Of a stretch of 56,943 nucleotides of DNA, positions 1 through 56,943 are shown in pieces. Positions within the stretch are counted from its first letter, which is position 1. Each line of letters starts with the position of its first letter. This DNA is from Pseudolabrys sp. (lineage in GTDB: Bacteria > Pseudomonadota > Alphaproteobacteria > Rhizobiales > Xanthobacteraceae). Location of the stretch: contig JAHBZF010000007.1 in assembly GCA_019635575.1 (NCBI GenBank), positions 1 to 56,943 of the forward strand, given 5' to 3'. The notes under the pieces were generated by a model. It made no database searches, had not been told where the DNA came from, and saw nothing but the letters and a program-made list of their open reading frames with translations. A program made the position numbers and the translations under genes.

Positions 1-480
1 CGCTCGCGCTCGCGCTCGCGCCCCTGCACGTACGTCTCCGGCTCGCTCGGGTCGTCGCTGCGCTGCGCGAGGAACGCCATGTGCGCGACCGACACGCGCC
101 CGCGGATCGACAGGTCGCCCGCGAGCCCCGCGACCGATGCGTAGTGCGTCACGAAGAGCGTGAAGGCGCGCGACTCCAGCGCGAGGTGCCGGAGCGCCGC
201 GTACGCGATCGCCGCGCCATCGAACGTCGACGTGCCGCGCCCGAGCTGGACGTCGCGCGCGCGCGCGCGAGCGTGAGGCCGGCGGGCGAGCGAGCGCACA
301 TCGCGCACCGGCGCACCTCGTCCATGATCACGAGCGACTCGGACGTCGCCGACGACAGGATCTCGCTCGCCTCCGCCAGCTCGACGAAGAACGTGCTGCG
401 ACCGGCGAGCGGGTTGTCGCTCGCGCCCATGCGCGTATAAATCGCGTCGAACACGGGCAGCCGCGCGCTCTCCGCCGGCA
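1..480 (-). other. eukaryotic MSH3-like MutS C-terminal fragment joined to bacterial mutS
   Basis: Read on the minus strand and skipping 246-316, this stretch encodes a continuous MutS-homologue ATPase tail: [13 protein letters not shown], the Walker B segment, then [24 protein letters not shown] and VAHMAFLAQ. Bacterial MutS has IGRGT-type, FATHY and different wording here, while FVTHY, IAYATL and HMxFL are typical of eukaryotic MSH3. Third codon positions are almost all G or C, more extreme than in the rest of mutS. The exact junction cannot be fixed because the region is conserved; it lies about 440-560. It reads as a GC-rich eukaryote (for example an alga) fused to the bacterial contig. 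I favour assembly chimera over real transfer because it sits exactly at the contig end. Confidence 0.75.
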
Positions 481-2551
481 CGAACGAGCCGATCTGCGCG
501 AGCAGCGCGATCAGTGCATTCTGCCGCAGGAAGGTCGACTTACCGGCCATGTTCGGGCCGGTGAGCAGCCAGATGCGTCCTGCCTCATGTCCGCCCGGCG
601 GCGACAGATCGCAATTGTTGGCGACGAACGCGCCGCCGTCGCGCGCCAGTGCCTGTTCCACCACCGGATGACGACCGCCCTCGATCTCGAAGGCGAGCGT
701 TGCGTCGATCTGCGGCCGCACATAATCGCGCTCGGCGGCGAGCGTCGCCAGCGCGGCGGTCACATCGAGCGCGGCGAGCGCCTGCGCCGCCGCCTTGATC
801 GGCTCGCTGGCGACGGTGATGCTCGCTGCGAGTTGTTCGAACATCTCCAGTTCGAGACCGAGCGCGCGGTCGCCGGCGCTGGCGATCTTTGCTTCCAGTT
901 CGCCGAGTTCGGTGGTGGTGAACCGCACCTGTCCGGCGAGCGTCTGGCGGTGGATGAAGGTCTGATTGAGCGGCGCGGCCATCAGCTTGTCGCCGTGCTG
1001 CGCCGTCACCTCGACGAAATAACCGAGCACGTTGTTGTGCCGGATCTTCAAGATCTTGATGCCCGTCTCGTCGGCGTAGCGCGCCTGCAGTGCGGCGATG
1101 ACGCGGCGCGCCTCGTCGCGCAGCGCACGCGTCTCGTCGAGCGTCGTGCTGTAGGCGGGACGGATGAAGCCGCCGTCGCGCTTGAACACCGGAAGCTCGT
1201 CGTCGAGCGCAGCGGCGAGTTCGCGCGCGATCGCCTTGTCGACGCCGGCGCAGGCAGCAGCAGCGTCGGCGAGATCGGCCGGGGCATCCGCCAGCGATGA
1301 CAGACGGCCGGCAAGATCGGCGGCGGCGGTCAGGCCGTCGCGGATGCCGGCAAGATCGCGCGGGCCGGCGCGGCCGAGCACGATGCGCGCCAGCGCGCGG
1401 GCGAGATCGGGTGCACGGTTGAGCGCCGCGCGCAGATCGGCGCGCAAGGTGGCTTGCGCGACCAGAAATTCCACCGCGTCGTGGCGGCGGCGGATCACCT
1501 CGACATCGGTCAGCGGCGCGGCAAGCCGCTGCGCGAGGAGCCGCGAACCCGCCGAGGTCACGGTGCGGTCGATGGAAGCGAGCAGCGAGCCCGCGCGTTC
1601 GCCGCTCATGGTGCGCATCAGTTCGAGATTGGCGCGGGTGGCCTGATCGATCGCCATGGTGGCGCCGGCCTGCTCACGCAGCGGCGGAGACAGCGGCGGG
1701 CGTCTGCCGATCTGCGTGCGCTCGACATAGCTGATGCAGGCGGCGGCCGCGGTGAGTTCGAGCCGCGTCAGATCGCCGAACGCGGCGCTGGTCGCGACCG
1801 CGAAGAAATCCGTAAGCCGTCGCTCGGCGCTGGCGCCGTCGAATACATCGCGCGCCAGCGGCACCACCGCGGGAAACTCGCGCCAGAACGCGGCGAGGTC
1901 TGCATCTGAAAAAAGCGCATCGGAGACGAGGATTTCGCCGGGATCGACGCGCGCGATCTCCGCAGCCAGCGCGCCGCGCTCGCACTCGGCGATGCGGAAT
2001 TCGCCGGTGGAGATATCGATCCAGGCGAGGCCGAAGCGGCTATCGGTCTCGCCGGCGCGGGCGCGCGCCACCGCCAGCAGATAATTGTTGCGCCGCGCGT
2101 CGAGCAGCGTGTCCTCGGTCAGGGTGCCGGGCGTGACGAGGCGCACCACGTCGCGGCGGACCACGGCCTTGGACCCGCGCTTCTTCGCCTCGGCCGGGTC
2201 TTCCATCTGCTCGCAGACGGCGACGCGGTGGCCGAGCGCGATCAGCTTGTGCAGATATTCGTCGGAGCGGTGGATCGGCACGCCGCACAGCGGTACGTCC
2301 TTGCCGAGATATTTGCCGCGCTTGGTCAGCATGATGCCGAGCGCGCGCGAAGCGACTTCGGCATCCTCGAAGAACAGTTCGTAGAAATCGCCCATCCGGT
2401 AGAACAGCAGGCAGTCCGGATTGGCGGTCTTGATCTCGATATACTGTTCCATCATCGGCGTCGGACGCGCGACGTCGTCCGGTGCCTTGACCGGCTCCGC
2501 GGGCGGCGGATCGTCGTCGAGTTCGGAACGGAGGGCGCGGGCGGCGGTCAT
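149..2551 (-). CDS. mutS: DNA mismatch repair protein MutS (3' part replaced by foreign sequence)
   Basis: Mismatch-recognition ATPase. The start at 2551 gives the usual alphaproteobacterial N-terminus; the mismatch-binding Phe-x-Glu motif is at residues 56-58 (GDFYELF), followed by connector, lever and clamp regions. Walker A (GPNMAGKST) is at about 665-673 and Walker B (LVIMDE) at 740-745. From about residue 690 (near position 480) the sequence stops looking like bacterial MutS and becomes eukaryotic MSH3-like. After residue 745 the frame runs into an insert and ends as arginine-rich nonsense at 149, so the encoded 800-residue product is not a real protein. The bacterial part is sound; the intact bacterial 3' end (about 200 residues with helix-turn-helix and dimerisation region) is missing. 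It is not co-transcribed with the catabolic operon downstream of which it lies in any obvious functional sense. Confidence 0.85.
246..316 (-). other. 71-nt GT-AG spliceosomal-type intron candidate
   Basis: On the minus strand the codons for MDE end at 317, the next bases are GTGCGC, and 71 nt later CCAG precedes CTCGGGCGCGGC, which continues the conserved [10 protein letters not shown] motif in frame. The length is not a multiple of three, so the gene is broken unless it is removed exactly at GT and AG. A CTCAC branch-site-like motif has its A (position 274) 28 nt before the AG. The insert is otherwise GC-rich low-complexity sequence. No group I, group II or intein features fit in 71 nt. Confidence 0.7.
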
Positions 2552-2653
2552 GACCGGCGGACGCTAGCAGAAGCGCGCCGGGGTTTCACGGTCGCACGCC
2601 CCAGAACCCCCGGTTTTCACGGGCCGGACTCGCACGAAAAAGCCGGAAAAGCC

Positions 2654-3865
2654 TTATGTCACCGCATTGGCGCGGCGCAGCCCGCCGAGCATGGAGGATT
2701 CCATGACGTGCGCCCTGGCTCGTTGCGGGTCGGCGGCGACCGCCATCAGCTCGGTGAGATGCTGGCGTTGCACGGCGGGATCGCGCTCCTGCAACAATTG
2801 CTTGTTGCGGATCGACATCTTCTGCACCTGCTCGACAGTCGCGGCGCGGCGCTGCCGGTCGTAAACGCCGAGCAGGGTTTCGTTCTCGCCATGCCAGACG
2901 CGGCCGAGCTTGTCGGCGAGATTGATCGCGTCATGGATGCCGCTGTTGAGGCCGAAGCCGCCGAGCGGATTGTTGAGATGCGCGGCGTCGCCGGCAAGCA
3001 GCGCGCGGCCGTGGATGAACGTCTGCGCGACGCGCTGATGCACGCGATAGATGCTCTTGTAGCGGATCTCGTAAGGCTGGTCGCGCTGTACCAGCAACTG
3101 CATCGCGCGCTCGATATTCGCCGGGTCGAGCAGTTCGGCATCGGATTTCTGCGGATCGCCGTAGAACGCCGCGCGCCACAGGCCGGGCGGGCCGTCGTCT
3201 GGCACCTTGAACACCGCGGCCCATTCGATCGGATCGGACACATAGGCGTTCATCGTGAAGCCGTGCTGGCCGAGATCATAAGGCGTGCTGGCGACGACAA
3301 AAAATTCCGGCCAGGTGAAGCCTTCGAATTCGATACCGGTGCCTTTGCGCACGACGCTACGCGAGCCGTCCGCGCCGATCAGCCACGATGCTTCGATGAC
3401 GCGCGTCTCGCCGTCCGTCTCCACGGTGACGCGCACGCCGTCGCCATCCTGCGTGTAGTCGGCGACACGATGATTGAAATGGACTTCCGTGCCGGGGATC
3501 GCCCGCAGGATGTCGAGCTGGATCGGCGTCAGCCGGTGTTGCTCGAGATGCAGCCGATAGGGATACGGCGTGACATCAGCCAGAAGTCCGAGATCGAACT
3601 GCGCGATATATTCGCCGCGCTTGTCGCGGATTTGCCATTCTTGGACCTGCAGCCCGGTGTCGTGCATCCGGTCGGTGATGCCGTAGGGCGCCATCATCTC
3701 CAGCGTCGGCGGGTGATAGGAACCGGCGCGCAGATCGTGGGTAAGCGCCGGTTCGGCCTCGAACACGATGACGGGAATGTTCTGCCGGGCGAGCGCGATC
3801 GCGCACATCAAACCGGTGGGACCGGCGCCGGCGATGACGACGGGCTTGGACGTTTTCGAGTTCAT
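2654..3865 (-). CDS. FAD-dependent aromatic-ring monooxygenase-like protein
   Basis: Class A flavoprotein hydroxylase family (403 residues, cytoplasmic), which use NAD(P)H and O2 to hydroxylate an activated aromatic ring. Seen: Rossmann GAGPTG at 13-18 with Glu36 closing the ADP-ribose site, the DG motif in LIGADGSRS near 161-165, and the GD motif in LLAGDAAHLNNP near 295 followed by the FAD-pyrophosphate helix GGFGLNSGIHDA. It is closer in wording to MhpA/UbiH-type hydroxylases than to PobA. The start at 3865 lies 3 bases after the amidohydrolase stop, so it is the last gene of the TRAP/ior operon. A role hydroxylating the imported aromatic acid (or product of its neighbours) is inference; the substrate cannot be read from sequence. 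Confidence 0.85.
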   Translation of the reverse strand: MNSKTSKPVVIAGAGPTGLMCAIALARQNIPVIVFEAEPALTHDLRAGSYHPPTLEMMAPYGITDRMHDTGLQVQEWQIRDKRGEYIAQFDLGLLADVTPYPYRLHLEQHRLTPIQLDILRAIPGTEVHFNHRVADYTQDGDGVRVTVETDGETRVIEASWLIGADGSRSVVRKGTGIEFEGFTWPEFFVVASTPYDLGQHGFTMNAYVSDPIEWAAVFKVPDDGPPGLWRAAFYGDPQKSDAELLDPANIERAMQLLVQRDQPYEIRYKSIYRVHQRVAQTFIHGRALLAGDAAHLNNPLGGFGLNSGIHDAINLADKLGRVWHGENETLLGVYDRQRRAATVEQVQKMSIRNKQLLQERDPAVQRQHLTELMAVAADPQRARAHVMESSMLGGLRRANAVT

Positions 3866-3868
3866 GGA

Positions 3869-4879
3869 TTAACGGAAGAACTTGACGCCGGTGAGCGCTT
3901 CGAGGTTGCCGCGATAAAGCCGGTCGAGGTCGGCCTGCGAGAAATTCATCGAGTCGATGATCTTCATGGTGTCGCGGATATAGCCGGGGCCTTTCTCCGG
4001 GTCGAACGGGCAATCCGATGCAAAGATGATGTGATCCATGGCATAAAAGTCGAAGCCGCACAGCGCCGCGCCACGGCCGCCGAATGTGGCGGTGTCGGCG
4101 TGGAAATTCTGCTTGAAGTAGTCGAGCGGCCGTTTCTTCAGGCTGCGGCGCAGCGCATCGAGGTCTTCGTCGGATGTGCGCGCGCCGATCTGGTCCCAGC
4201 CGGGGCCGATGCGGCCTTCGAGCATCGGCACGATGCCGCCGAAATGGTGCACGATCAGCTTGAGATCCGGATATTTGTCCAGCGTCCTGGAGAAGACGAG
4301 CCGCGACATCGCAGCGGCCGTTTCATAAGACCAGCCGAGGGCCCACCAGATTTCGTATTTCGATTTCGGCTCGTCCATGTAATCGGGATGCTTGGCGTTA
4401 CGTGCTGGATGCAGCCAGACCGGTTTCTTGTTGCCATTCATCGCCGCGAAGAACGGCTCGAACTCCGGCCGATCGATCGGCTTGCCAAGCACGTTGGTGT
4501 AGATTTGCACGCCGAGCGCGCCGTTCTTCAGCGCGCGTTCGGCCTCGCGCACACCGGCGTCCGGCGCGCCCATCGGCGCCTGCGCGACCCAGCCGGGATA
4601 GCGCTTCGGATCGCGCGCGCAAATTTCGGCGAAGCCGTCGTTGACGATCTTGGCGTAGTCCTCGACCTGATCCGGCGCGGCGAGATATTCGAGCGGCGGC
4701 ATCGGATAGGACAGGATCTGCGCGTAGTTTTCGAAGCTGTCGACCACCCGGTTGCGAACGTCCATGTCGTGGATCGAGGGTACGCCGCGCATGCGCTTGC
4801 CGATGTCGCCGAAGCCGCTGTCCACCAGCTTCTCGAAGAATTTCGGCGGGATGAAATGAGTATAGGCGTCGATCCGCAT
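3869..4879 (-). CDS. amidohydrolase-2 family protein (ACMSD / o-pyrocatechuate decarboxylase type)
   Basis: TIM-barrel metal enzyme of the Amidohydro_2 family (336 residues), whose members decarboxylate or hydrolyse aromatic acids. Candidate metal and catalytic residues are His8, His157 (VWLHPAR), His211/His212 (LIVHHFGG) and Asp289 (FASDCPFD). The usual N-terminal HxH is YTH here, so the first metal His is replaced by Tyr6; related subfamilies vary at this point. It lies between iorB and the FAD monooxygenase in the same orientation, 131 bases after iorB and 3 bases before the monooxygenase. A non-oxidative decarboxylase or ring-cleavage-product hydrolase in the same pathway is the natural guess. 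Confidence 0.82.
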   Translation of the reverse strand: MRIDAYTHFIPPKFFEKLVDSGFGDIGKRMRGVPSIHDMDVRNRVVDSFENYAQILSYPMPPLEYLAAPDQVEDYAKIVNDGFAEICARDPKRYPGWVAQAPMGAPDAGVREAERALKNGALGVQIYTNVLGKPIDRPEFEPFFAAMNGNKKPVWLHPARNAKHPDYMDEPKSKYEIWWALGWSYETAAAMSRLVFSRTLDKYPDLKLIVHHFGGIVPMLEGRIGPGWDQIGARTSDEDLDALRRSLKKRPLDYFKQNFHADTATFGGRGAALCGFDFYAMDHIIFASDCPFDPEKGPGYIRDTMKIIDSMNFSQADLDRLYRGNLEALTGVKFFR

Positions 4880-5010
4880 GGTGGCCCTCGATGTGGTAGC
4901 AATTTATGCGGTGTTAAGGCGCTGTTGTGCAAGCGTGGTGGAGACGGCGAGGCGCATGGCAGCCACGCTGTCCTCTCGGATTATTGCCGCGCTGCGGCAT
5001 CAAAGCGCGG

Positions 5011-6540
5011 TCATTCGGCGGCGGTGGGCAGCGCCGTCTGCGCGGCGATGGCGGCGAGGCAACGTGTCAGGCTCTCGCCTTCCGGGTCGGCCAGGGCCGC
5101 CGCGCGGGCGCTGGCGATGGCATCGATCGCGAGCGGCAGCGGGATCGCGCCCGCCAGTGCCGGCCGGATCACCTGTGTCTCGATGCTTGCGAAATTCGCG
5201 GTGCCGCGGGCATGGGTGTCGCCATAGCCCTTGATCAGGCGGGCGCATTCCGCGATCTCGCGCGCCAGATCGGAGCCGAGGTTGGGCGAGCGCGCCGCGG
5301 CGCCGCGGATCATGCCGAGCCAGTTTTCGATCGCGGCCTGTTCCTCATGGTAGCGATGGCAATGCGGTCGCCAGCCGCGCAGCTTGGCCAGCAGCCAGAA
5401 CCGCAGGAAGCCGGTGACCGAGGTGGTGTTCACCTCCATGCCGAAATAGACGCGGCCGAGCCAGCCGCGCCGCGCCGCCAGCCGCAGGATCGCGCGCGCC
5501 AGGCGCGGCGGCAGGATCTGGCAGAACTCGTCAATGCCGGGCTTGAGGAAATCGGTGATCACGAACGGCTCGCCCGACGCTTTCAGTTCCTCGCGGGCGA
5601 TGCGGGCGAACCGCTCCGGCGCGATCTTCGCCTGCGCGACGCGGATCACATCCTCGAACGACATGCGCACGGCAAGATGCCGCGCTGTCTCGCGCAGCAG
5701 GATCGGGTCGCCGCCGGCGAACGGAGCGAGTCGGTCGAGATAAAGCCGCGCGTAGCGCGCGCTCTGATAGGCGACGAGGCGGCGTACGCCTTCCAGCACG
5801 ATCTCGCGTGCGGCCTCGGGGAATGCCGTCGTGGCGCGCTCCAGGTCGGCCAACGTTTCGCGGCTGTGCTTCTTCGTTTCTACCGGCGCGACGACTGGCA
5901 GCCGCGCTTTCGCTGCCGCGAGCCCAGCGCGGAAGCCGCGCAGATTGGCGTCCGCCGCTTTTCCTTCGGCGCGGATCGCTGTCTCGAAATCATCCGCGGT
6001 CATCGGCATCACGCCGCTGCCGGCGAGCGCACCGAGCATCACGGAATTGATCATGGTGCCGTTGGCCTTCGCCAGGGTCTCCATGTCGATCAGCAGATTG
6101 TCGCGCGCATTGTCGTTGATCGCCTGGATCAGCAGATCGCGGTCGTAACGGCCGTCGCCCATCGCCATCTTTTCGGTGGTGAGATAGGAGCGGCCGGTCG
6201 CGCCGAGCATCAGGGTGCGGTCGCGGGTGACGAAGCCGTTGGCGATGGCCCGACCCGCTTCAAGCAGTTCGGTCGCGGCCATGATGTCGACGTCGCCGAC
6301 GCCGGGGGTGAGCGACAGCACCGGCCGGCGGCCGTTGAGCGCGCGCCATGTCGCGGGCACGACCTCGATATAATAAGTGGTGGCGCCGGTACGCTGCGCG
6401 ACGCCGGGGATCGATGTGCTCTGCACCGGATAGCCGGCATGGGTCGCCGCCTTGACGATCCAGTCGGTGAGCACGCCGCCGCCTTCGCCGCCGAGCGCGG
6501 CGATCAGCAGGGTAATGGGGCGGTCCGGGGCGGCGCTCAT
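5011..6540 (-). CDS. iorB: indolepyruvate:ferredoxin oxidoreductase beta-subunit-like protein
   Basis: The N-terminal ~200 residues are a pyruvate-ferredoxin-oxidoreductase gamma (IorB) domain: ALGGEGGGVLTDW close to the start, then GVAQRTGATTYYIE. The protein is 509 residues, much longer than archaeal IorB (~200); the C-terminal extension from about 215 matches the DUF6537-type region seen in bacterial IorB-like proteins. The start ATG overlaps the iorA stop by 4 bases (ATGA), showing translational coupling. With the alpha subunit it would oxidatively decarboxylate aryl-2-oxo acids to aryl-acyl-CoA, passing electrons to ferredoxin. Real substrate unknown. Confidence 0.87.
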   Translation of the reverse strand: MSAAPDRPITLLIAALGGEGGGVLTDWIVKAATHAGYPVQSTSIPGVAQRTGATTYYIEVVPATWRALNGRRPVLSLTPGVGDVDIMAATELLEAGRAIANGFVTRDRTLMLGATGRSYLTTEKMAMGDGRYDRDLLIQAINDNARDNLLIDMETLAKANGTMINSVMLGALAGSGVMPMTADDFETAIRAEGKAADANLRGFRAGLAAAKARLPVVAPVETKKHSRETLADLERATTAFPEAAREIVLEGVRRLVAYQSARYARLYLDRLAPFAGGDPILLRETARHLAVRMSFEDVIRVAQAKIAPERFARIAREELKASGEPFVITDFLKPGIDEFCQILPPRLARAILRLAARRGWLGRVYFGMEVNTTSVTGFLRFWLLAKLRGWRPHCHRYHEEQAAIENWLGMIRGAAARSPNLGSDLAREIAECARLIKGYGDTHARGTANFASIETQVIRPALAGAIPLPLAIDAIASARAAALADPEGESLTRCLAAIAAQTALPTAAE

Positions 6541-8750
6541 GTCGGTGTCGTGGTGCGGGCGTCAAGGGTGGTGCTGGCGCGTGCCAGCGCGGGAATCGGC
6601 GCCAGTGCCGGCTCGGCCTGTGGGAATCGAATGCCGAACAGGCCGAGGAATCCACGCCGCATCGCGAACAGGAAGCGGTCCCACGCGGTGGCGTTGCGGA
6701 TGATTTCGGCACGATAGAACGACGGGCACAGCACCGCGGCGTGCGCGACCTCGCCGCACAGGCCGCAGCCGACGCAGCTCTCGATCACGGTCGCGACCGG
6801 ATCGGTGCGCAGCGGATCGGGCGACGGCTTCACCGTCAGCGACGGACAGCCGGATAGCCGCATGCAGGAATGGTCGCCGGTGCAGATCTCGTCGTCGACG
6901 CCGTAGCGCGCACGGGTGACTCGCTCGCCGCGCTTGAGCTTCTCGGCATCTTCCACGCGAACGCGCCGCTGGCGCGCAAGCTGGCATTCGCCGTCGGCAA
7001 TGATGACCTTGAGGCCGCGTTCGGCGGTCTGCATCGCTTCCTTCAAGGTCTTCAGCATGGTCGCGACATTGTAGGTGCGGACCTTGCGCAGCCATTTGAC
7101 GCCGAAGGTGCGCAGCGTCTGCTCGATGTCCATGGTCTGGCCGGACGCCGCGTAGCTGTCCTTGCTCGACGGCATGAACTGCTGGCCGGTTGCCGAGGTG
7201 TAGCCGTTCTGCATCACGATCAGCACGCCATCGCCCTTGTTGAACAGGTTCGACGCGACGCCGGTGATCAAACCGTTGTGCCAGAATCCGCCGTCACCCA
7301 TCACTGTGATCGGCCGCCGCTCCATGTTCGGTCCGACCGCTGCGGCGGCGGCGAGCGACATGCCATAACCGAGGATCGAATTGCCCATGGAGAACGGCGG
7401 CAGGGTCGCGAACGAATGGCAGCCGATATCGGTGGAGATATGCGTCGGGCCGAGTTCGCGCTGCATCAACTTGACGGCGGAGAACACCGGGCGTTCCGGA
7501 CAGCCGGTGCAGAAGCCGGGCGGGCGTGGCGGAATCTCGCCGGTTGATTTCGTCGCGGCCGGCCGATGCGCCAGCATGGTCTCGACCCGTGCCGCGATCG
7601 CGTCGGCATCGACGCCGGTCGGTCGCGTCTTGATCAGGAACGCGGCGAGACCGCGCAGCAGCACGTCCTGCGTATATTCGCCGGCGGCGGGCAGGCAGTC
7701 CTTGCCGTGGATCTGCGTCTGGATATCGGCGCGGCGCAACTGCGTGTTGATCTGCTGCTCGATGTAATCGGGGTTGCCTTCCTCGACGATCAGCACCGCG
7801 CGCTTGCCGGCGCAGAACTGCGCCACTTCGTCGGGCACCAGCGGGTAGGCGAGGTTGAGCACATAGATCGGGATGCGCGCGGCGCCGAACAGATCGGCGA
7901 GACCGATGCGGCCGAGCGTGCGCACGACGCTGTTATAGAGCCCGCCGAGCACGACGATGCCGATCTCGCTGACGTCACCGTCGAACACCTCGTTGAGCTT
8001 TTGTTCGCGGGCGAACGCCTGGGCGGCCGGCAGCCGGTGTTCGGCCTTGAGCTTCTCGTGCACGAAGGTGACCGGTGGATGCGCCAGCCGCATGTAATCG
8101 AATTTCGGCGGACCGGAGAGCTTGTTGCGGCCGGAGAATTGTCCGCGGCGGTTATCCTTGGTGGTGAACTCGCCGGTGACATGGCAGGCGCGGATGCGTA
8201 ATTCGAGCATCACCGGCGCGTGGGTCGCCTCCGACAACGCGAAGCCCTGTTCGACAGTGTTGACGATGGTGGGGAGATCGGGCCGAGGATCGAGCAGCCA
8301 GATGCCGCATTTCATCGCATAAGCGTAAGAGCGCTCCTGGATGACGCTTGCGCCTTCGCCGTAATCCTCGCCGATGACGATCATCGCGCCGCCGATGACG
8401 CCGGGTGAGGCGAGGTTCGACAGCGCGTCGGCCGCGACATTGGTGCCGACCACGGATTTCCACGTCACCGCGCCGCGCAGCGGATAGTTGATCGAGGCGC
8501 CGAGCATCGCCGCGGCGGAGGCTTCGTTGGTGCAGGTTTCCAGATGCACGCCGAGATCGTCGAGCAGGTCGCCGGCATCGACCATCACATCGATCAGGTG
8601 CGACACCGGCGCGCCCTGATAGCCGCCGACATAGGACACGCCGGATTGCAGCAGCGCCTTGGTGACCGCGAGGATACCTTCGCCCTCGAAGGTCTCGCCG
8701 TCGCCGAGTTTCAGCGCCTCGACTTCCTTGCTGAATGAACGCTCTGCCAT
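6537..8750 (-). CDS. iorA: indolepyruvate:ferredoxin oxidoreductase alpha-subunit-like protein
   Basis: Thiamine-diphosphate and iron-sulfur subunit (737 residues). Seen: N-terminal pyrimidine-binding domain (SYVGGYQGAPVSHLID), middle transketolase-C-like domain, CTGCPERPVFSA, TPP-binding GDGGFWHNG followed by MQNGYTSATGQQ, and a C-terminal cysteine cluster (CTGDHSCMRLSGCP, then CVGCGLCGEVAH and a later Cys) for 4Fe-4S clusters. The start at 8750 (MAERSF) is chosen because the open frame above it is antisense-like nonsense overlapping the SnoaL-like gene. It lies 25 bases after that gene. Two-subunit aryl-pyruvate oxidoreductases are best known from anaerobes; several aerobic proteobacteria carry this larger form in aromatic amino-acid or arylpyruvate catabolism. 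Confidence 0.9.
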   Translation of the reverse strand: MAERSFSKEVEALKLGDGETFEGEGILAVTKALLQSGVSYVGGYQGAPVSHLIDVMVDAGDLLDDLGVHLETCTNEASAAAMLGASINYPLRGAVTWKSVVGTNVAADALSNLASPGVIGGAMIVIGEDYGEGASVIQERSYAYAMKCGIWLLDPRPDLPTIVNTVEQGFALSEATHAPVMLELRIRACHVTGEFTTKDNRRGQFSGRNKLSGPPKFDYMRLAHPPVTFVHEKLKAEHRLPAAQAFAREQKLNEVFDGDVSEIGIVVLGGLYNSVVRTLGRIGLADLFGAARIPIYVLNLAYPLVPDEVAQFCAGKRAVLIVEEGNPDYIEQQINTQLRRADIQTQIHGKDCLPAAGEYTQDVLLRGLAAFLIKTRPTGVDADAIAARVETMLAHRPAATKSTGEIPPRPPGFCTGCPERPVFSAVKLMQRELGPTHISTDIGCHSFATLPPFSMGNSILGYGMSLAAAAAVGPNMERRPITVMGDGGFWHNGLITGVASNLFNKGDGVLIVMQNGYTSATGQQFMPSSKDSYAASGQTMDIEQTLRTFGVKWLRKVRTYNVATMLKTLKEAMQTAERGLKVIIADGECQLARQRRVRVEDAEKLKRGERVTRARYGVDDEICTGDHSCMRLSGCPSLTVKPSPDPLRTDPVATVIESCVGCGLCGEVAHAAVLCPSFYRAEIIRNATAWDRFLFAMRRGFLGLFGIRFPQAEPALAPIPALARASTTLDARTTTPT

Positions 8751-8775
8751 TGCGGCACCAGACTTTCTCGGCGCT

Positions 8776-9225
8776 TCAGAACATGCCGTTGTTATGTGCC
8801 ATCGTCTCGGGGATGTCCTGCGCGACGTCCCAGTGCTCGACGATCTTCCCGTTCTCAAGACGGAAGATATCCATGATCGCCCGCCCGCGCGTGCCAGGTT
8901 CGCGGATATTGTGGACATGGAGGATCACGTAGTCGCCGTCGGCGAAGACACGCTTGATCTCGCTTTTATAGCCGGGGAACTTGTCCTTCAGGAATGCGAC
9001 AAAAGCCTTGAAGCCGTCGATCCCGTCTTTCGCGCCTGGATTGTGTTGAATGTAGCGCGGTCCGAGATATTTCGCCGCTGCATCGAAATCCTTGTCGTTG
9101 ATGCCTTTCTGATAAAACTCGACAACGGCCTTCTTGTTGGCCTCCATCTGCTTCGCGTCGGCCGCCAGCGCGCCCGACGCCGAGATCAGCGAGAATGCGG
9201 CGGCGGCGATCAGTTTGATCATCAT
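8776..9225 (-). CDS. secreted SnoaL/NTF2-like protein
   Basis: 149 residues. Residues 1-22 form a cleavable signal peptide (basic start, hydrophobic AAAAFSLISASG, then ALA-A). The rest is a SnoaL-like alpha+beta barrel: VVEFYQKGINDKDF, YIQHNP, FPGYKSEI, ILHVH and DIFRLENGKIVEHWD are typical. The start ATG at 9225 follows a strong ribosome site (GGGGAG) and a second ATG comes next. The family includes polyketide cyclases and many ester-cyclase-like proteins of unknown substrate. Its place between the TRAP permease (21 bases upstream) and iorA, together with export, suggests periplasmic handling of the imported compound. That role is inference. Confidence 0.85.
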   Translation of the reverse strand: MMIKLIAAAAFSLISASGALAADAKQMEANKKAVVEFYQKGINDKDFDAAAKYLGPRYIQHNPGAKDGIDGFKAFVAFLKDKFPGYKSEIKRVFADGDYVILHVHNIREPGTRGRAIMDIFRLENGKIVEHWDVAQDIPETMAHNNGMF

Positions 9226-9245
9226 GCTTCTCCCCATTCTTTCAT

Positions 9246-10544
9246 CTACATATGCGACGGGAGCCAGAGCGCCAGGATCGGGAAGGCGATCAGGATCACC
9301 AGCCGGATCAGGTCGGTGACGATGAAAGGCAGCACGCCCTTGAAGATCGTCGCGAAACTGACGTCGTCGATCACGCTTTTTATCACGAACACGATCATCC
9401 CGACCGGCGGATGGATCAGGCCGAGTTCCACGGTCATGACGATGATGATGCCGAACCAGATCGGGTCGAAACCGAGATGCATCATCACCGGGAAGATGAT
9501 CGGGATGGTGAGGATGATCATCGCCATCGCGTCCATCAGACAGCCGAGGAACAGATACATCAGCATGATGAGCGCGAGCACGCCGTAACGGCCGAGGCCG
9601 AGCCCGGTCAGGAACTCGGTGACCTTCTGCGGCGTCTGCGTGACGGTGAGGAAGTAGCCGAACAGCAGCGCGCCGATCAGCACGGTGAACACCGCGGCGG
9701 CGGTGCGCGTCGCCTGCAATAGCGAGCGGCGGATATCGGCGCGGTTGAGCTTGCCGCGCAAGACGCCGATCAGGAACGCGCCGCCCGCGCCCATGCCGCC
9801 GGCCTCGGTCGGCGTGAACAGACCGCCATAGAGGCCGCCGATCACGAACAGGAACAGCAGCAAGGTCGCCCAGATGTCGCGCAGGCTGTCGAGCCGCTCC
9901 TTCCAGGAGTGGCGCGGCGTCGCCGGCAGGAAGCCAGGCCGCACGAAGCCGATGATCATCACCGTCATGATGTACATCGTTGCAGCGAGCAGGCCTGGGA
10001 TGATGCCGGCGATAAACAGCTTGCCGATATCCTGCTCGGTGATGATGCCGTAGACGGCCAGCACCGTGGAGGGTGGCAGCATCGCGCCGAGCGTGCCGCC
10101 GGCGGCGATGACGCCGGTGGCGAACGACTGCGGATAGTTGTAACGGCGCATCTCCGGATAGGCGACGGTGGAGAACGTCGCCGCGGTGGCGACCGACGAG
10201 CCGGAGATCGCGGCGAAGCCGCCGCACGCCGCAATGGTGGCGATGCCGAGCCCGCCGCGGAAATGCCCGAGGAACGAATTGGCGGTGCGGAACAGTTCGC
10301 GGCTCATGCCGGAATTGGTGACGAACGCCCCCATCAGCAGGAACATCGGGATGACGCCGAAGGTGTAGTCGGTCACCGTGCGCATCGAGGTGTGGCCGAT
10401 GATCTTCAGCGCGGCCGAGCCGTTGACGATGTAGGCGAAGCCGGACACGCCGACGAGGCCCATCGCCATGCCGACCGGCACGCGCAGGATCATCATCACG
10501 AACAGCGCGGCAAAACCGAGAATGGCGACGGTATCGGTGCTCAT
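9246..10544 (-). CDS. dctM: TRAP transporter large permease (DctM family)
   Basis: 432-residue inner-membrane protein with about 12 hydrophobic segments, the ion-coupled translocation subunit of a tripartite ATP-independent periplasmic transporter. Family wording includes RVPVGMAMGLVG near the N-terminus, MLPPSTVLAVYG, and HPPVGMIVFVIKS near the C-terminus. It starts 12 bases after the small permease stop. It works with the small permease and the periplasmic binding protein encoded upstream, importing an organic (probably aromatic or 2-oxo) acid with Na+ or H+. Confidence 0.93.
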   Translation of the reverse strand: MSTDTVAILGFAALFVMMILRVPVGMAMGLVGVSGFAYIVNGSAALKIIGHTSMRTVTDYTFGVIPMFLLMGAFVTNSGMSRELFRTANSFLGHFRGGLGIATIAACGGFAAISGSSVATAATFSTVAYPEMRRYNYPQSFATGVIAAGGTLGAMLPPSTVLAVYGIITEQDIGKLFIAGIIPGLLAATMYIMTVMIIGFVRPGFLPATPRHSWKERLDSLRDIWATLLLFLFVIGGLYGGLFTPTEAGGMGAGGAFLIGVLRGKLNRADIRRSLLQATRTAAAVFTVLIGALLFGYFLTVTQTPQKVTEFLTGLGLGRYGVLALIMLMYLFLGCLMDAMAMIILTIPIIFPVMMHLGFDPIWFGIIIVMTVELGLIHPPVGMIVFVIKSVIDDVSFATIFKGVLPFIVTDLIRLVILIAFPILALWLPSHM

Positions 10545-10556
10545 GCGGGGCGCCCG

Positions 10557-11132
10557 TTATTCGACCGGTTTCATTTGATAGCTGCCGCCGTGCTCGTCGG
10601 CATAGAAGATCAGCCGCCAGGTGCGGATCGCGATCAGCAAGACGGCGGACACGTCGCCGATCCACGCGAGCGCGAAGAACGGCCAGGTCGGCAATTGCAG
10701 ATCGAAGGTGAGGACGTGGTCCTCATAGGTGCTGACCACCTTGTCGAACAGCGTGTAGGTCTGCACCGTGACGACGAACAGCAGCACCAGCGTCGCGAAC
10801 ACGTCGATGTAGCGCTGCCAGCGCGGGCTGACATTGCTGTAGAGCAGGTCGACGGTGATGTGGGTGCCGCGATAGGACGTGGCGGCGATGCCCCAGAAGA
10901 TCAGGATGCCGAGCAGCAGCCGGCCGAAATCATAGGCATCGGGAATCTGCACGCTGAAGAAATAGCGCAGCATCACCGAAATGAAGATGTCGGCGGCGAC
11001 GAGACCGACGAAGAACGCAGCGACCAGTTCGATGCCGTCGATGAAGCGATCCATCGGGCCGCGCTTGCGCGGCGGCGGCGATCCGGCAAGCTCGCGGGCG
11101 ACCTCGGTGTCGCTGAGCGTTTCGGGAGTCAT
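10557..11132 (-). CDS. dctQ: TRAP transporter small permease (DctQ family)
   Basis: 191 residues with four predicted membrane segments (around VAAFFVGLVAADIF, LLLGILIFWGIAA, VFATLVLLFVVTV and FFALAWIGDVSAVLL) and the DctQ-type motif RGTHITVDLL in the middle. It bridges the binding protein and the large permease. It is separated from dctP by a palindromic repeat (11160-11273), which may lower read-through from dctP into the permease genes. Confidence 0.9.
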   Translation of the reverse strand: MTPETLSDTEVARELAGSPPPRKRGPMDRFIDGIELVAAFFVGLVAADIFISVMLRYFFSVQIPDAYDFGRLLLGILIFWGIAATSYRGTHITVDLLYSNVSPRWQRYIDVFATLVLLFVVTVQTYTLFDKVVSTYEDHVLTFDLQLPTWPFFALAWIGDVSAVLLIAIRTWRLIFYADEHGGSYQMKPVE

Positions 11133-11159
11133 GTCGATATGTCCGATCGACGTTTGCGG

Positions 11160-11273
11160 GTCATTCCGGGGCGGCCTGTAAGGCCGGACCTAGAATCCAG
11201 AAACAAGTTTCGCTAACGCTGAAGTCCGGGTCGCCGCCTCCACCTGCGGGTGCAGGCGGCGACCCGGAGTGAC
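11160..11273. repeat. intergenic palindromic repeat with a strong hairpin
   Basis: The ends are inverted (GTCATTCCGGG at 11160 and CCCGGAGTGAC at 11263). Inside is a perfect 14-bp stem, CCGGGTCGCCGCCT at 11226 with AGGCGGCGACCCGG ending at 11267, whose loop itself contains CACC-TGCG-GGTG. This resembles the short interspersed palindromes common between genes in Bradyrhizobium and Rhodopseudomonas. In the dctP-dctQ transcript it would fold strongly and may act as an mRNA stabiliser for dctP or partial terminator. Confidence 0.7.
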
Positions 11274-11278
11274 AGCCG

Positions 11279-12322
11279 TCAGTTCGCGGCCGACTTGAAC
11301 TTCACCAGCTCGGCCTTCAGCTCCTTCATGATCGCATCCGGATTGCCGCCGGTCTTGCGGACATTGTTGGCCCAGGTCTTTTCCAGCGGTTCGGCCGCCT
11401 TCTTCCACTCGGCAAGCTGCGCCGGAGTGATCGGATAGACCTCATGGCCGGCTTCCGCCTTAAGCTTGGCGATGCCAGCGTGTTCGAAATCAGCCCACGG
11501 CGCGGCGACCTTCAGTGCCCAGTCGTTATTGCAGTGAGCGTCGATCACCTTCTTCTGCGATGCGGACATCGCCTTGTAGGTGTCCTTGTTGAACACGAAC
11601 ACGAAGGTGGTCGCGTAGAGCGGCACGTCCATGTGGTACTTCGTGACCTTGTCGATGCCGAACAGCGGCACCGAGCCCCACGGGAAGGTCACCGCGTCGG
11701 CGACACCCTTCTCGAGAATGTCGCGTACTTCCGGCGCGCTCGACTGCACATTTGTGCCGCCGAGCGAGGTGACGAAGGTCGCCATGGTGGCGTGTGCCGG
11801 GCGAATCTTCATGCCCTTGATGTCGGCCGGCACCATGATTTTCTTGGTCTTGGAATGGAACGAGCCGGGATCGTGGATGAAGGCGAGGCAGAACTTCACG
11901 TCCTTCATTTCGCGGTCCGCGTATTTGCGATACCAGGCGTCGATCGCCTGTGAGCCGCCCTTGGCGTTGGCGAACAGGAACGGTAGCTCGCCGGCGCCGA
12001 TGATCGGGAAACGGCCGGGCTGATAGCCGGGATTGACGTAGGTGAGATCGGCGATGCCGTCGCGCGCCATGTCGTAATGGTCGAACGCCTTGCCGAGCTG
12101 CTGCGACGGATAGACCTTGTATTTGATCGTGCCGTTCGAGGCTTTCTCGACCGACGCGCCCCAGTCCTCCAGCGCCTTCTGCAGCGGGTGCGACGGCGGC
12201 ACCCAGTGCGCGAGCTTCAATTCAAAGGTCTTGTCCTGCGCTTGAGCCTGCGGCGCGGTAGCGAGCATCAGCGCGACAGCGGTGGCGGAAACGGCGCCCG
12301 CCAGGTGGCGACGAACTTGCAT
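11279..12322 (-). CDS. dctP: TRAP transporter periplasmic substrate-binding protein (DctP family)
   Basis: 347 residues with a signal peptide (basic start, hydrophobic core AVSATAVALMLATAP, cleavage after AQAQA). The mature part begins KTFELKLAHWVPPSHPLQK, typical of DctP, and MKIRPAHATMATFVTSLGG holds the conserved Arg region that binds a carboxylate. A strong ribosome site (GGGGAGGA) precedes the ATG at 12322. It is the first gene of the minus-strand operon and is divergent from marR. The neighbouring enzymes suggest an aromatic carboxylate as ligand; the sequence alone cannot fix it. Confidence 0.92.
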   Translation of the reverse strand: MQVRRHLAGAVSATAVALMLATAPQAQAQDKTFELKLAHWVPPSHPLQKALEDWGASVEKASNGTIKYKVYPSQQLGKAFDHYDMARDGIADLTYVNPGYQPGRFPIIGAGELPFLFANAKGGSQAIDAWYRKYADREMKDVKFCLAFIHDPGSFHSKTKKIMVPADIKGMKIRPAHATMATFVTSLGGTNVQSSAPEVRDILEKGVADAVTFPWGSVPLFGIDKVTKYHMDVPLYATTFVFVFNKDTYKAMSASQKKVIDAHCNNDWALKVAAPWADFEHAGIAKLKAEAGHEVYPITPAQLAEWKKAAEPLEKTWANNVRKTGGNPDAIMKELKAELVKFKSAAN

Positions 12323-54029: not shown

Positions 54030-54791
54030 ATGAGCATCGACGTCATCGATCTGCGCAATTTCTACTCGCAGCGCCTCGGCGGCGTGGCGCGGCGGCTGAT
54101 CAGCCGCGGCATCAAGCGCCACTGGCCGCATGCGGAGAGCCTGCGCGTGGCCGGGCTCGGCTATCCGACGCCCTATCTCGGCCTGTTCCGCGAAGATGCC
54201 GAGCGCTGCATCGCGCTGATGCCGGCGGCGCAGGGCGTGATGAAATGGCCGACCGAGCGGCCCACGCTGTCGACGCTGGTGGACGAATACGCGCTGCCGC
54301 TGCCCGACGCCGCGATCGACCGGATCCTGCTGGTGCACGCGCTGGAGATTTCCGACGATCCGGAAGGGCTGTTGCGCGAGGTGTGGCGCGTGCTCGCGCC
54401 GTCGGGGCGGATGATGGCGGTGGTGCCGAACCGCCGCGGCGTGTGGACGCGCACCGACAACACGCCGTTCGGCCACGGCCGGCCCTATTCGCGCTCGCAG
54501 ATCACGCAGCTCTTGCGGCAGACCTGGTTCACGCCGACCGCGTGGGGCGAGGCGCTGTTCGTCCCGCCGATCGAGGGCGGCTGGATCCTGCGTTCGGCGA
54601 TGGCGTGGGAGCGGATGAGCGCGGCGGTATCGTCGCCGTTCGCCGGCGTCCATATCGTCGAAGCGACCAAGCAGGTGTACCGGCCGATCCCGGCCCACCG
54701 CGAGCGTACCCGGCTCATCCCGGCGATGCCGCCGGTCCTGGTGCCGACACCGACGCCGACACGGCGCGACGACGTCTCGACGGCCGGCTGA
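54030..54791 (+). CDS. class I SAM-dependent methyltransferase-like protein
   Basis: 253 residues. Methyltransf_11-like: ILLVHALEISDDPEGLLREVWRVL and SGRMMAVVPNRRG mark the post-motif strands. The first motif is unusual (VAGLGYPTPYLGLF instead of DxGxGxG), so SAM binding is not certain. The C-terminal tail is Pro/Thr-rich. Substrate unknown. Its position divergent from gloB is its main contextual clue. Stop lies 4 bases from the convergent DUF4167 stop. Confidence 0.82.
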   Translation: MSIDVIDLRNFYSQRLGGVARRLISRGIKRHWPHAESLRVAGLGYPTPYLGLFREDAERCIALMPAAQGVMKWPTERPTLSTLVDEYALPLPDAAIDRILLVHALEISDDPEGLLREVWRVLAPSGRMMAVVPNRRGVWTRTDNTPFGHGRPYSRSQITQLLRQTWFTPTAWGEALFVPPIEGGWILRSAMAWERMSAAVSSPFAGVHIVEATKQVYRPIPAHRERTRLIPAMPPVLVPTPTPTRRDDVSTAG

Positions 54792-54795
54792 ACGC

Positions 54796-55506
54796 TCAGT
54801 CGCCGGCCGGACCGAAATCCTCGCTCGGCGGCGCCGCCACCTGGCTGTCCGGGCGCGGGCCCGGCGGCCGGCGCCGGCGGCGATGGCTGAAGCGCTCGCC
54901 GGCCTGCCGCTCACCGCCCTCGAATCCGCCGGCCGGCTGCGGCTGCGCGCCGCCGGTAATGAAGGACGGCAGGCGATCCACCTCCTGGCTCTCCGCCGGC
55001 TGCGGCTGCGGCTGCGGGCGCGGCTCGCGGTAGGCCTGCTCGCGCGGTTGGTACTGTTCGCGCGGCGGATAGGGCTGCTGCGCTTCGCGCGGCGGGTAAT
55101 GCGGCTGCGGCTGCGGCGCAGGCTGGACGAAGCCCGGTTCGGCGCCGAACGAGGAATAGTCGTCGCCGAGGTCGTCCGCGCCGTCGATATCCGGGCGGAT
55201 GACGGGCTGCTGCTGTTGCTGGGGCTGATTCTGGCGGAACTGCTCCTGCGCCGCCGCGATGAGGCGGAAATAGTGCTCGGCGTGCTGGTAGTAGTTCTCG
55301 GCGGCGACCGGGTCGCCGGAGGAGCGGGCGTCGCGCGCAAGCTGGACGTATTTCTCGGCGATGTGCGAGGCGGTGCCGCGGATCTTGATGTCCGGTCCGT
55401 TGGACTCGAAAACCCGGGTCATCGGGTTCTGGCCGCGCCGGTTGTTGTTGTTGTTGCCGCCGCTCCGGCTGCGCATGCGCTTGTTGCTGTTCGGACCGTT
55501 TCTCAT
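54796..55506 (-). CDS. DUF4167 protein
   Basis: 236 residues. The N-terminal NNNNNRRGQNP and the domain VFESNGPDIKIRGTASHIAEKY...AENYYQHAEHYFRLI are the DUF4167 signature, specific to Rhizobiales and relatives. From about 95 the protein is disordered, rich in Pro/Gln/Tyr (PQPQP, YPPRE repeats), and ends in a basic patch RRRRRPPG. Probably RNA- or protein-binding, but function unknown. Downstream of prmC with a long noncoding gap. Confidence 0.92.
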   Translation of the reverse strand: MRNGPNSNKRMRSRSGGNNNNNRRGQNPMTRVFESNGPDIKIRGTASHIAEKYVQLARDARSSGDPVAAENYYQHAEHYFRLIAAAQEQFRQNQPQQQQQPVIRPDIDGADDLGDDYSSFGAEPGFVQPAPQPQPHYPPREAQQPYPPREQYQPREQAYREPRPQPQPQPAESQEVDRLPSFITGGAQPQPAGGFEGGERQAGERFSHRRRRRPPGPRPDSQVAAPPSEDFGPAGD

Positions 55507-55939
55507 ATCGTGCCTTTATGCCAGTTCTGGAACGTCGCTCGGTGGGGCGGAGACGCTGCGCATCGCGCGCGGGAAGCGCTGCCGTCCGGATTCAGATCGA
55601 TTGTGCCGCGTATCGCGTTCAACAAGGACGCGTTCTCCAAGGGCTCCGGGGCTCTCAGCCGCCCGGGCCGGATCAGATCAGCCTGCACCAGCAAGCGCGA
55701 TGTTCTGCAAATCAGAGTTTAAGCGCACTCTCAGGCTTTCATTGGCTTTGCGATCCCAGACGGCGCAGCTTTCTTGAGCTTTCGCGCGCGACGTGACCTG
55801 CCTTGTCGGAACCTTTCACCCGGCGGGCGCCTCTCTCGAGACTTCTGGCTCACCCCGTATTCCCTAACGGGGGCCCACGACCCTGCACCGATGCTGTGCC
55901 GGAACCTAGTCGCTCCGGGGCGATATTCCAAGAGATTTT
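55507..55939. other. 433-base noncoding region between prmC and DUF4167
   Basis: No frame here looks like protein on either strand. It contains a small hairpin (CCCCGT / ACGGGG, 55853-55872), an AT-rich patch (AGATTTTTTATC near 55932-55944) and many short GC-rich inverted pairs. Since both flanking genes are on the minus strand, it would hold the prmC 3' end, the DUF4167 promoter and a long leader, or a small RNA. I see no tRNA, riboswitch or known RNA motif. Confidence 0.5.
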
Positions 55940-56845
55940 TTATCTTGCCGACACCCTTTCGCCGGGCGATTTCCGCCCTATGACCGCGCGCGGAACCCCG
56001 GCCAGATCGGCCCGCGGCGGGGAGGGCAGGGCGAGCCCCGCCGCTTGCATCATCCCGCTCACCGCCGCGTCCTGGCCGCGCCCGACTTCGACGACCAGCG
56101 CGCCGCCCGGCGCGAGCAGGCGCGCCGCCTGCGGCACCAGGATGCGATAGGCGGCAAGCCCGTCGGGCCCGCCGTCCAGCGCGCGGTGCGGGTCGTGCGC
56201 GCGCACGTCGCGATCGAGGCCGGCGATGTCCGCGGTCGTGATATAGGGCGGGTTGGCGACGACAAGATCGAGCGGCCCCGCGAGCGCCGCCGCGTAGTCG
56301 CAGCGGACGAACGTTGCGCGGCCGGCGAGGCCGAGGCGCCGCGCGTTCTCCTCCGCGGTGGCCAGCGCCGCCGCGCTGATGTCGGTGCCGATGCCGGCTG
56401 CGTTCGCAAGCTCCGTCAGGAGCGCCAGCAGGATCGCGCCGGAGCCGGTGCCGATATCGGCGATGCGCAGCGCGTCTATGGTGCGGTGTTCGCGCCGCAG
56501 GATATCGAGCGCCGCCTCGACCACGGTCTCGGTATCGGCGCGCGGCACCAGCGTCGCCTCCGACAGCAGGAGATCGAGGCCCCAGAATTCCTTGCGGCCG
56601 AGGATGCGCGCGACCGGCTCGCGGCCGATGCGCCGCCGCACGAAACCTTCGATCGCCGCGGCTTCATCGGGCGTGACGCGCCGCGCCGCCTGCACCGCGA
56701 GCCCGGTGAGATCAAGGCCAAGCGCCGCGCCGACCAGCAGCCGCGCGTCGAGGTCGGGCGACTCGATGCCCTCAATCCGCAAGCGCGCGGCGAGCGCGCG
56801 GCGCGCCGCCTGCACGGTGAGGCCGGCGAGCCCGCCGCCGCTCAC
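55940..56845 (-). CDS. prmC: peptide chain release factor N5-glutamine methyltransferase
   Basis: 301 residues. N-terminal helical domain, [26 protein letters not shown] (HemK hallmark), SAM motif [13 protein letters not shown], and catalytic NPPY in [12 protein letters not shown]. Methylates the GGQ glutamine of release factors. Start is GTG at 56845, overlapping the prfA stop (GTGA), so it is translationally coupled to its substrate's gene. Confidence 0.95.
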
Positions 56846-56943
56846 GCGGCGTCGCCCTGGGCGGCGAGCTGCGCCGCCTGGTGCTCGGTGGTCAGCGCGT
56901 CGATCAGCTCGCCCAGAGCCTCGCCGGCGATCACCTGCGGCAG
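56842..56943 (-). CDS. prfA: peptide chain release factor 1, C-terminal end (partial)
   Basis: Only the last 33 codons are in the window, ending at the TGA in 56842-56844. [19 protein letters not shown] is the normal RF1 C-terminus. The gene continues beyond the right edge. Its identity rests on this tail and on the overlap with prmC. Confidence 0.85.

Follow-up and report, generated by a model that had tools for sequence, protein, structure and literature searches.

A mutS gene running into an MSH3/MSH6-type tail at a Pseudolabrys contig end: very probably a metagenome misassembly of an ordinary bacterial gene

The mutS locus

The window analyzed here is a stretch of 56,943 nucleotides that forms the entire contig C177 of a Pseudolabrys sp. 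assembly (G000), which consists of 209 contigs totaling 3.83 Mb, with an estimated completeness of 83.6% and an estimated contamination of 5.4%. A mutS gene starts at window position 2551 on the minus strand and continues to the beginning of the contig, where it is joined to a foreign tail (Table 1). Pfam places MutS_I to MutS_IV and positions 1-93 of the 188-position MutS_V profile in one minus-strand frame (window 2551-149). A further piece of MutS_V, matching profile positions 86-132, lies in another frame of that strand (window 308-3). The host part has the layout of bacterial MutS1, with domains I-IV in order followed by the start of the ATPase domain V, all above the Pfam cut-off. A complete domain V in one frame is absent from the window, and the later positions of the in-frame 1-93 match are already foreign. 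Residues 1-655 are 97% identical at the amino-acid level to the MutS of the same-genus genome G015, and 1910 of 2052 columns are identical when window 2551-500 is aligned with the G015 mutS gene. The same residues find bacterial MutS first in the PDB (345 bits versus 90 bits for MSH3), which bears out the bacterial character of the N-terminal ~690 codons that the original prediction had called alphaproteobacterial MutS. The host part is thus like MutS1 in domains I-IV, the start of domain V, and its closeness to an intact relative, but differs in that the end of domain V is foreign in the window, while the real one lies on another contig, C113. On the opposite strand, a 999-aa open frame (window 2228-5227, plus strand) runs antisense to the mutS start and to two more genes; in this GC-rich DNA it is probably spurious.

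Table 1. Features of the chimeric mutS end in the window and of its counterpart on contig C113.
Feature	Position	Strand	Evidence
Foreign tail, second exon-like piece: ...TLFVTHY...HMAFLAQRSDDPSEPETYV, then CGCTCG-type simple repeat at the contig end	3..245	-	MutS_V 86-132, FVTHY
Insert of 71 nt (2 mod 3) with GC 0.82, bordered by GT...AG; likely a donor spliceosomal intron	246..316	-	Restoration of frame and motif
Foreign tail, first exon-like piece	317..489	-	phmmer of the joined tail
False-join zone within a conserved MutS stretch, most likely near 490	474..545	-	Drop in identity to G015, shared 11-base runs
Authentic host mutS: ~687 N-terminal codons with domains I-IV and start of V	490..2551	-	Pfam, identity to G015
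FAD403, 403-aa upstream neighbor of mutS	2654..3865	-	99% to the G015 gene adjoining intact mutS (tblastn, ORF)
Second chimeric mutS (L026): foreign sequence to about 761, followed by the host mutS C-terminus	G000:C113 1-1186		Reciprocal to the break in the window

Collinearity with an intact relative

G015 encodes an uninterrupted MutS of 915 aa, and its mutS stands in the gene order FAD403 - mutS - MEM265 - ADH351. We take FAD403 to be a FAD-dependent monooxygenase-like gene, and MEM265 and ADH351 are presumably a membrane-type gene (265 aa) and a dehydrogenase-type gene (351 aa), respectively. In G000, this order is divided between two contigs: FAD403 and the N-terminal part of mutS are on C177, and the C-terminal part of mutS, MEM265, and ADH351 are on C113. 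All three neighbors are 98-99% identical to their G015 counterparts at the protein level. When compared with the G015 locus by blastn, window 463-8750 aligns at 93%, C113 428-3689 at 92%, and C113 3693-7394 at 95%, and the two contigs meet within the G015 mutS gene; the C113 match opens with ~330 bases that belong to a foreign but homologous part. The downstream arrangement is shared more widely: in all five relatives whose loci were fetched, mutS is followed by MEM265 and ADH351 homologues at a distance of at most about 6 kb; FAD403 lies upstream of mutS in two of these five. Among the other same-genus genomes, 22 of 23 have a MutS match, which is free of internal stops in 21 of the 22. The match at G021:C31:8676-10631 contains an internal TGA and is accompanied by a second, overlapping match, perhaps owing to a frameshift or an assembly error.

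Farther into the window, collinearity with G015 weakens over positions 8750-11279, where 9247-11063 aligns at 73% between stretches of 93% and 91%. At the right end, window 54500-56943 aligns with G015:C5 in five pieces (70-77%), with two short stray matches elsewhere. Because the five pieces are in order up to the last base, this comparison gives no sign of a second false join at the right end.

Position of the join

Measured in blocks of 30 columns, identity between the window and the G015 mutS gene ranges from 0.77 to 1.0 over positions 930-541, is 0.83 and 0.80 in the two blocks of 540-481, and drops to 0.50-0.63 over 480-361; the block 360-331, at the edge of the alignment, has an identity of 0.23. 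The last 11-base runs common to the two sequences are found at 502-492 and 484-474. This fall in identity over 540-361, together with the last shared runs, places the junction between about 545 and 474, most likely near position 490, and agrees with the original prediction of a switch inside a conserved MutS stretch. Since the loss of identity is spread over ~70 bases, the exact base of the junction cannot be named. The reading frame runs on unbroken through the join itself.

Structure of the foreign tail

The tail consists of ~480 bases, of which ~138 codons are present, encoding an MSH3/MSH6-type ATPase end. Read straight through, it loses its MutS sense after the residues IMDE and encounters a TGA at window 151-149, so that the chimera, taken as a bacterial gene, is frame-broken. 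Taking out 71 nt (window 316-246) gives back the conserved motif DE/LGRGTS, the slash marking the exact site of the insert, as well as a frame that stays open to the contig end. Eight GT..AG pairs spaced by 30-130 nt were tried in the stretch examined; four leave no stop before the contig end, and one restores DE[LIV]GRGTS. Conversely, a 71-nt deletion yields this motif in six placements, one of which has GT..AG borders. By our estimate, chance could place GT..AG borders at this site a few percent of the time; the evidence for an intron is therefore good but not absolute, and the insert is likely a short, GC-rich spliceosomal intron of the donor. The contig itself begins (window 1-20) in a CGCTCG-type simple repeat that reads ERERE in the frame of the tail; just before this repeat on the minus strand, GTACGTGCAG could be the 5' end of a second intron.

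The tail also differs in composition, with a third-position GC of 0.96 over its 138 codons versus 0.84 over the 677 upstream codons, as had been predicted, though upstream windows of 50 codons (starting at codons 80-140 and 460-500) also have values of 0.90-0.98. Since some upstream windows are equally GC-rich at third positions, composition alone is a weak argument. The last ~450 bases had been read as an MSH3-like continuation of the gene; the MSH3/MSH6-type ATPase end holds, whereas a single open frame does not, given the 71-nt break.

The other half of the host gene

A MutS_V search of the window's own genome also hit contig C113 almost at its start, identifying a second gene there (C113:419-982). 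Bases 762-1186 of C113 are the host C-terminus, identical to G015 mutS at 405 of 425 positions. For bases 1-761, only 417 of 745 aligned bases are identical (405 of 724 for bases 1-740). A 22-base run common to C113 and G015 marks the switch (C113:762-783). The foreign part of the C113 gene presumably resembles planctomycete MutS.

The region between the two host parts was sought with the 381-base core of the G015 gene, which in G000 matches C177 (85%, up to query base 104), C113 (69%), and C133 (a 39-base match). No intact copy of this core was found in G000 among the 40 of 179 candidates that were scored. It seems that about 245-340 nt of the host mutS, the most conserved part that encodes the ATPase core, were lost from the assembly, as judged from these alignments. 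When window 1-600 was compared with its own genome, only the window itself and two short, weak matches (C113 and C146) were recovered among the 40 of 198 candidates scored.

Origin of the tail

By phmmer against the PDB, the tail with the 71-nt insert removed scores 102 bits to MSH3, 97 to MSH6, up to 90 to MutS, and 79 to MSH2, whereas the homologous piece of G015 MutS, used as a control, scores 120 bits to MutS, 96 to MSH2, 90 to MSH6, and 85 to MSH3. Among solved MutS/MSH proteins, MSH3 is thus narrowly the best match; scores of up to 104.6 bits are seen in some bacterial genomes. The tail is matched in 275 of the 299 genomes of the phylum, the window's own being among those searched. Score alone was rejected as proof of a eukaryotic tail, since bacterial MutS proteins of the same phylum attain this 104.6-bit value.

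These numbers lend some weight to a second reading, which accepts a false join but traces the tail to a bacterial mutS, divergent or decayed, whose frame is broken by a 71-nt insertion. The first ~95 residues of the tail are at least as close to the best bacterial MutS as to MSH3: among the matches listed, the best other genomes of the phylum score 104.6 bits, one of them with 56% identity over residues 1-95, compared with 102 bits for MSH3. Identity over the whole tail is 58/116 to MSH3, 53/103 to MSH6, and 59/117 to one bacterial sequence (L047), which equals MSH3 in this respect. The GT..AG borders, found in one of six placements, could likewise be due to chance at the rate of a few percent that we estimate. 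Because bacterial scores and identities match those of MSH3, the conserved core alone does not separate the domains of life.

Four observations argue against a bacterial tail. First, the motif FVTHY occurs in the tail and in MSH3 only among the sequences compared, whereas all 38 bacterial sequences have FATHY or FATHF. This set comprises 19 relatives (L005-L023), L024, 16 matches picked from the phylum (the top ones and some lower ones), L025, which is the same gene as L005, and L026, the C113 chimera. Second, of the 122 residues of the tail, bacterial matches stop at residues 89-110 among the matches listed, whereas MSH3 reaches 118-120. Third, a FastTree phylogeny built with one sequence per MSH paralogue groups the tail with MSH3 (0.63) and within MSH3 plus MSH6 (0.84), with a value of 0.68 when MSH2 is added. 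Fourth, a scan of 84,980 prokaryote genomes for tail relatives sharing exact 8-residue words returned 178 pattern stretches, one of which was confirmed, and offered no close bacterial relative. The same exact-word search in viral contigs returned 42 pattern stretches, none of which was confirmed. The one confirmed match of the prokaryote scan, in Thermosporothrix hazakensis, has 49% identity over query residues 12-56 and the motif FATHY; neither scan points to the donor.

With the first ~95 residues indecisive, the eukaryotic assignment is carried by FVTHY, the terminal part of the tail, the insert resembling an intron, and a modest tree. On this evidence, we regard the tail as very probably eukaryotic and a bacterial donor as unlikely. 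If the tail is eukaryotic, it probably derives from MSH3 rather than MSH6, a preference that the scores (102 versus 97 bits) and the tree (0.63) support weakly. The tail shares FVTHY and AIAYA with MSH3, and its TRMGASDN and HMAFL are near the TRMGAADN and HMGFL of MSH3. In turn, STFFVEL is common to the tail and MSH6, and the tail is as similar to MSH6 as to MSH3 in percent identity, which leaves the choice of paralogue tentative. Of the predicted eukaryotic MSH3-type tail, the eukaryotic part is supported by the insert, FVTHY, and the small tree, less strongly than the artefact itself, and the choice of MSH3 over MSH6 only weakly.

How the chimera may have formed

Taken together, an intact mutS in a close relative that lacks the join (G015), the collinearity of both contigs with that relative, two reciprocal chimeric ends, the rest of the broken gene at C113:762-1186 with its downstream genes, and a host core that was not found intact lead us to conclude, with little room for doubt, that window positions 1 to about 490 are a metagenome misassembly of an ordinary host mutS. 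The suspicion of an assembly artefact from a mixed sample, raised at the outset from the position of the chimera at the contig edge, is thereby substantiated. The bacterium-eukaryote fusion gene is almost certainly not a real feature.

Short words shared by conserved genes are branching points of assembly graphs. The host bacterium would carry an ordinary mutS that broke during assembly within domain V, at its most conserved part, in which short DNA words are shared by unrelated organisms. From there, the contig bearing the N-terminal side (C177) would have continued into an MSH3/MSH6-type gene, together with its intron, from a GC-rich and probably eukaryotic organism of the same sample. C113, which bears the C-terminal side, would have been prolonged backwards into the mutS of a third organism. 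Within this account, we infer both that the assembler made the false join and that the tail is eukaryotic in origin.

A join already present in real DNA molecules, created in the laboratory by amplification or during library construction, is another reading, as such chimeras are also known to arise at shared words. We consider this origin quite improbable here, since two different foreign partners and a missing shared core fit ambiguity in the assembly graph better than a laboratory chimera. A genuine mutS-MSH3 gene, acquired by transfer of eukaryotic DNA into the bacterium, has in its favor the continuous frame across the join and the membership of both parts in one protein superfamily, in which a domain swap could work in principle, but is scarcely credible: an intron-like insert, which a bacterium would not remove by splicing, breaks the frame about 170 bases past the join, the host C-terminal part survives on C113 with its proper neighbors behind a second foreign piece, a relative with 97% identity over residues 1-655 has a normal mutS, and the tail lies at the very end of a contig. 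It would require that the ATPase end of mutS in this lineage had truly been replaced by a eukaryotic MSH3 segment, intron included, beside a second, partial foreign mutS, for which we see next to no chance.

Misassembly, the reading we retain, has precedent. One published study (PMC8862208) describes how metagenome assembly can merge similar regions of different organisms, and the chimeric contigs of metagenome-assembled genomes discussed there are alike in this respect. Both broken ends here run on into the mutS or MSH genes of other organisms, which is a known kind of metagenome misassembly. The present case differs in that both broken ends of one host gene are visible in one assembly, and in that they lead into two different foreign homologues, of which one seems to be eukaryotic.

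Implications

A protein database made from contig C177 would contain a spurious MutS protein. Looking for the remainder of a broken gene elsewhere in its assembly, on another contig, is a check that needs no reads and could serve for other claimed gene chimeras at contig ends. The Pseudolabrys mutS locus illustrates clearly how false bacterium-eukaryote fusions can arise from strongly conserved genes in metagenome-assembled genomes.
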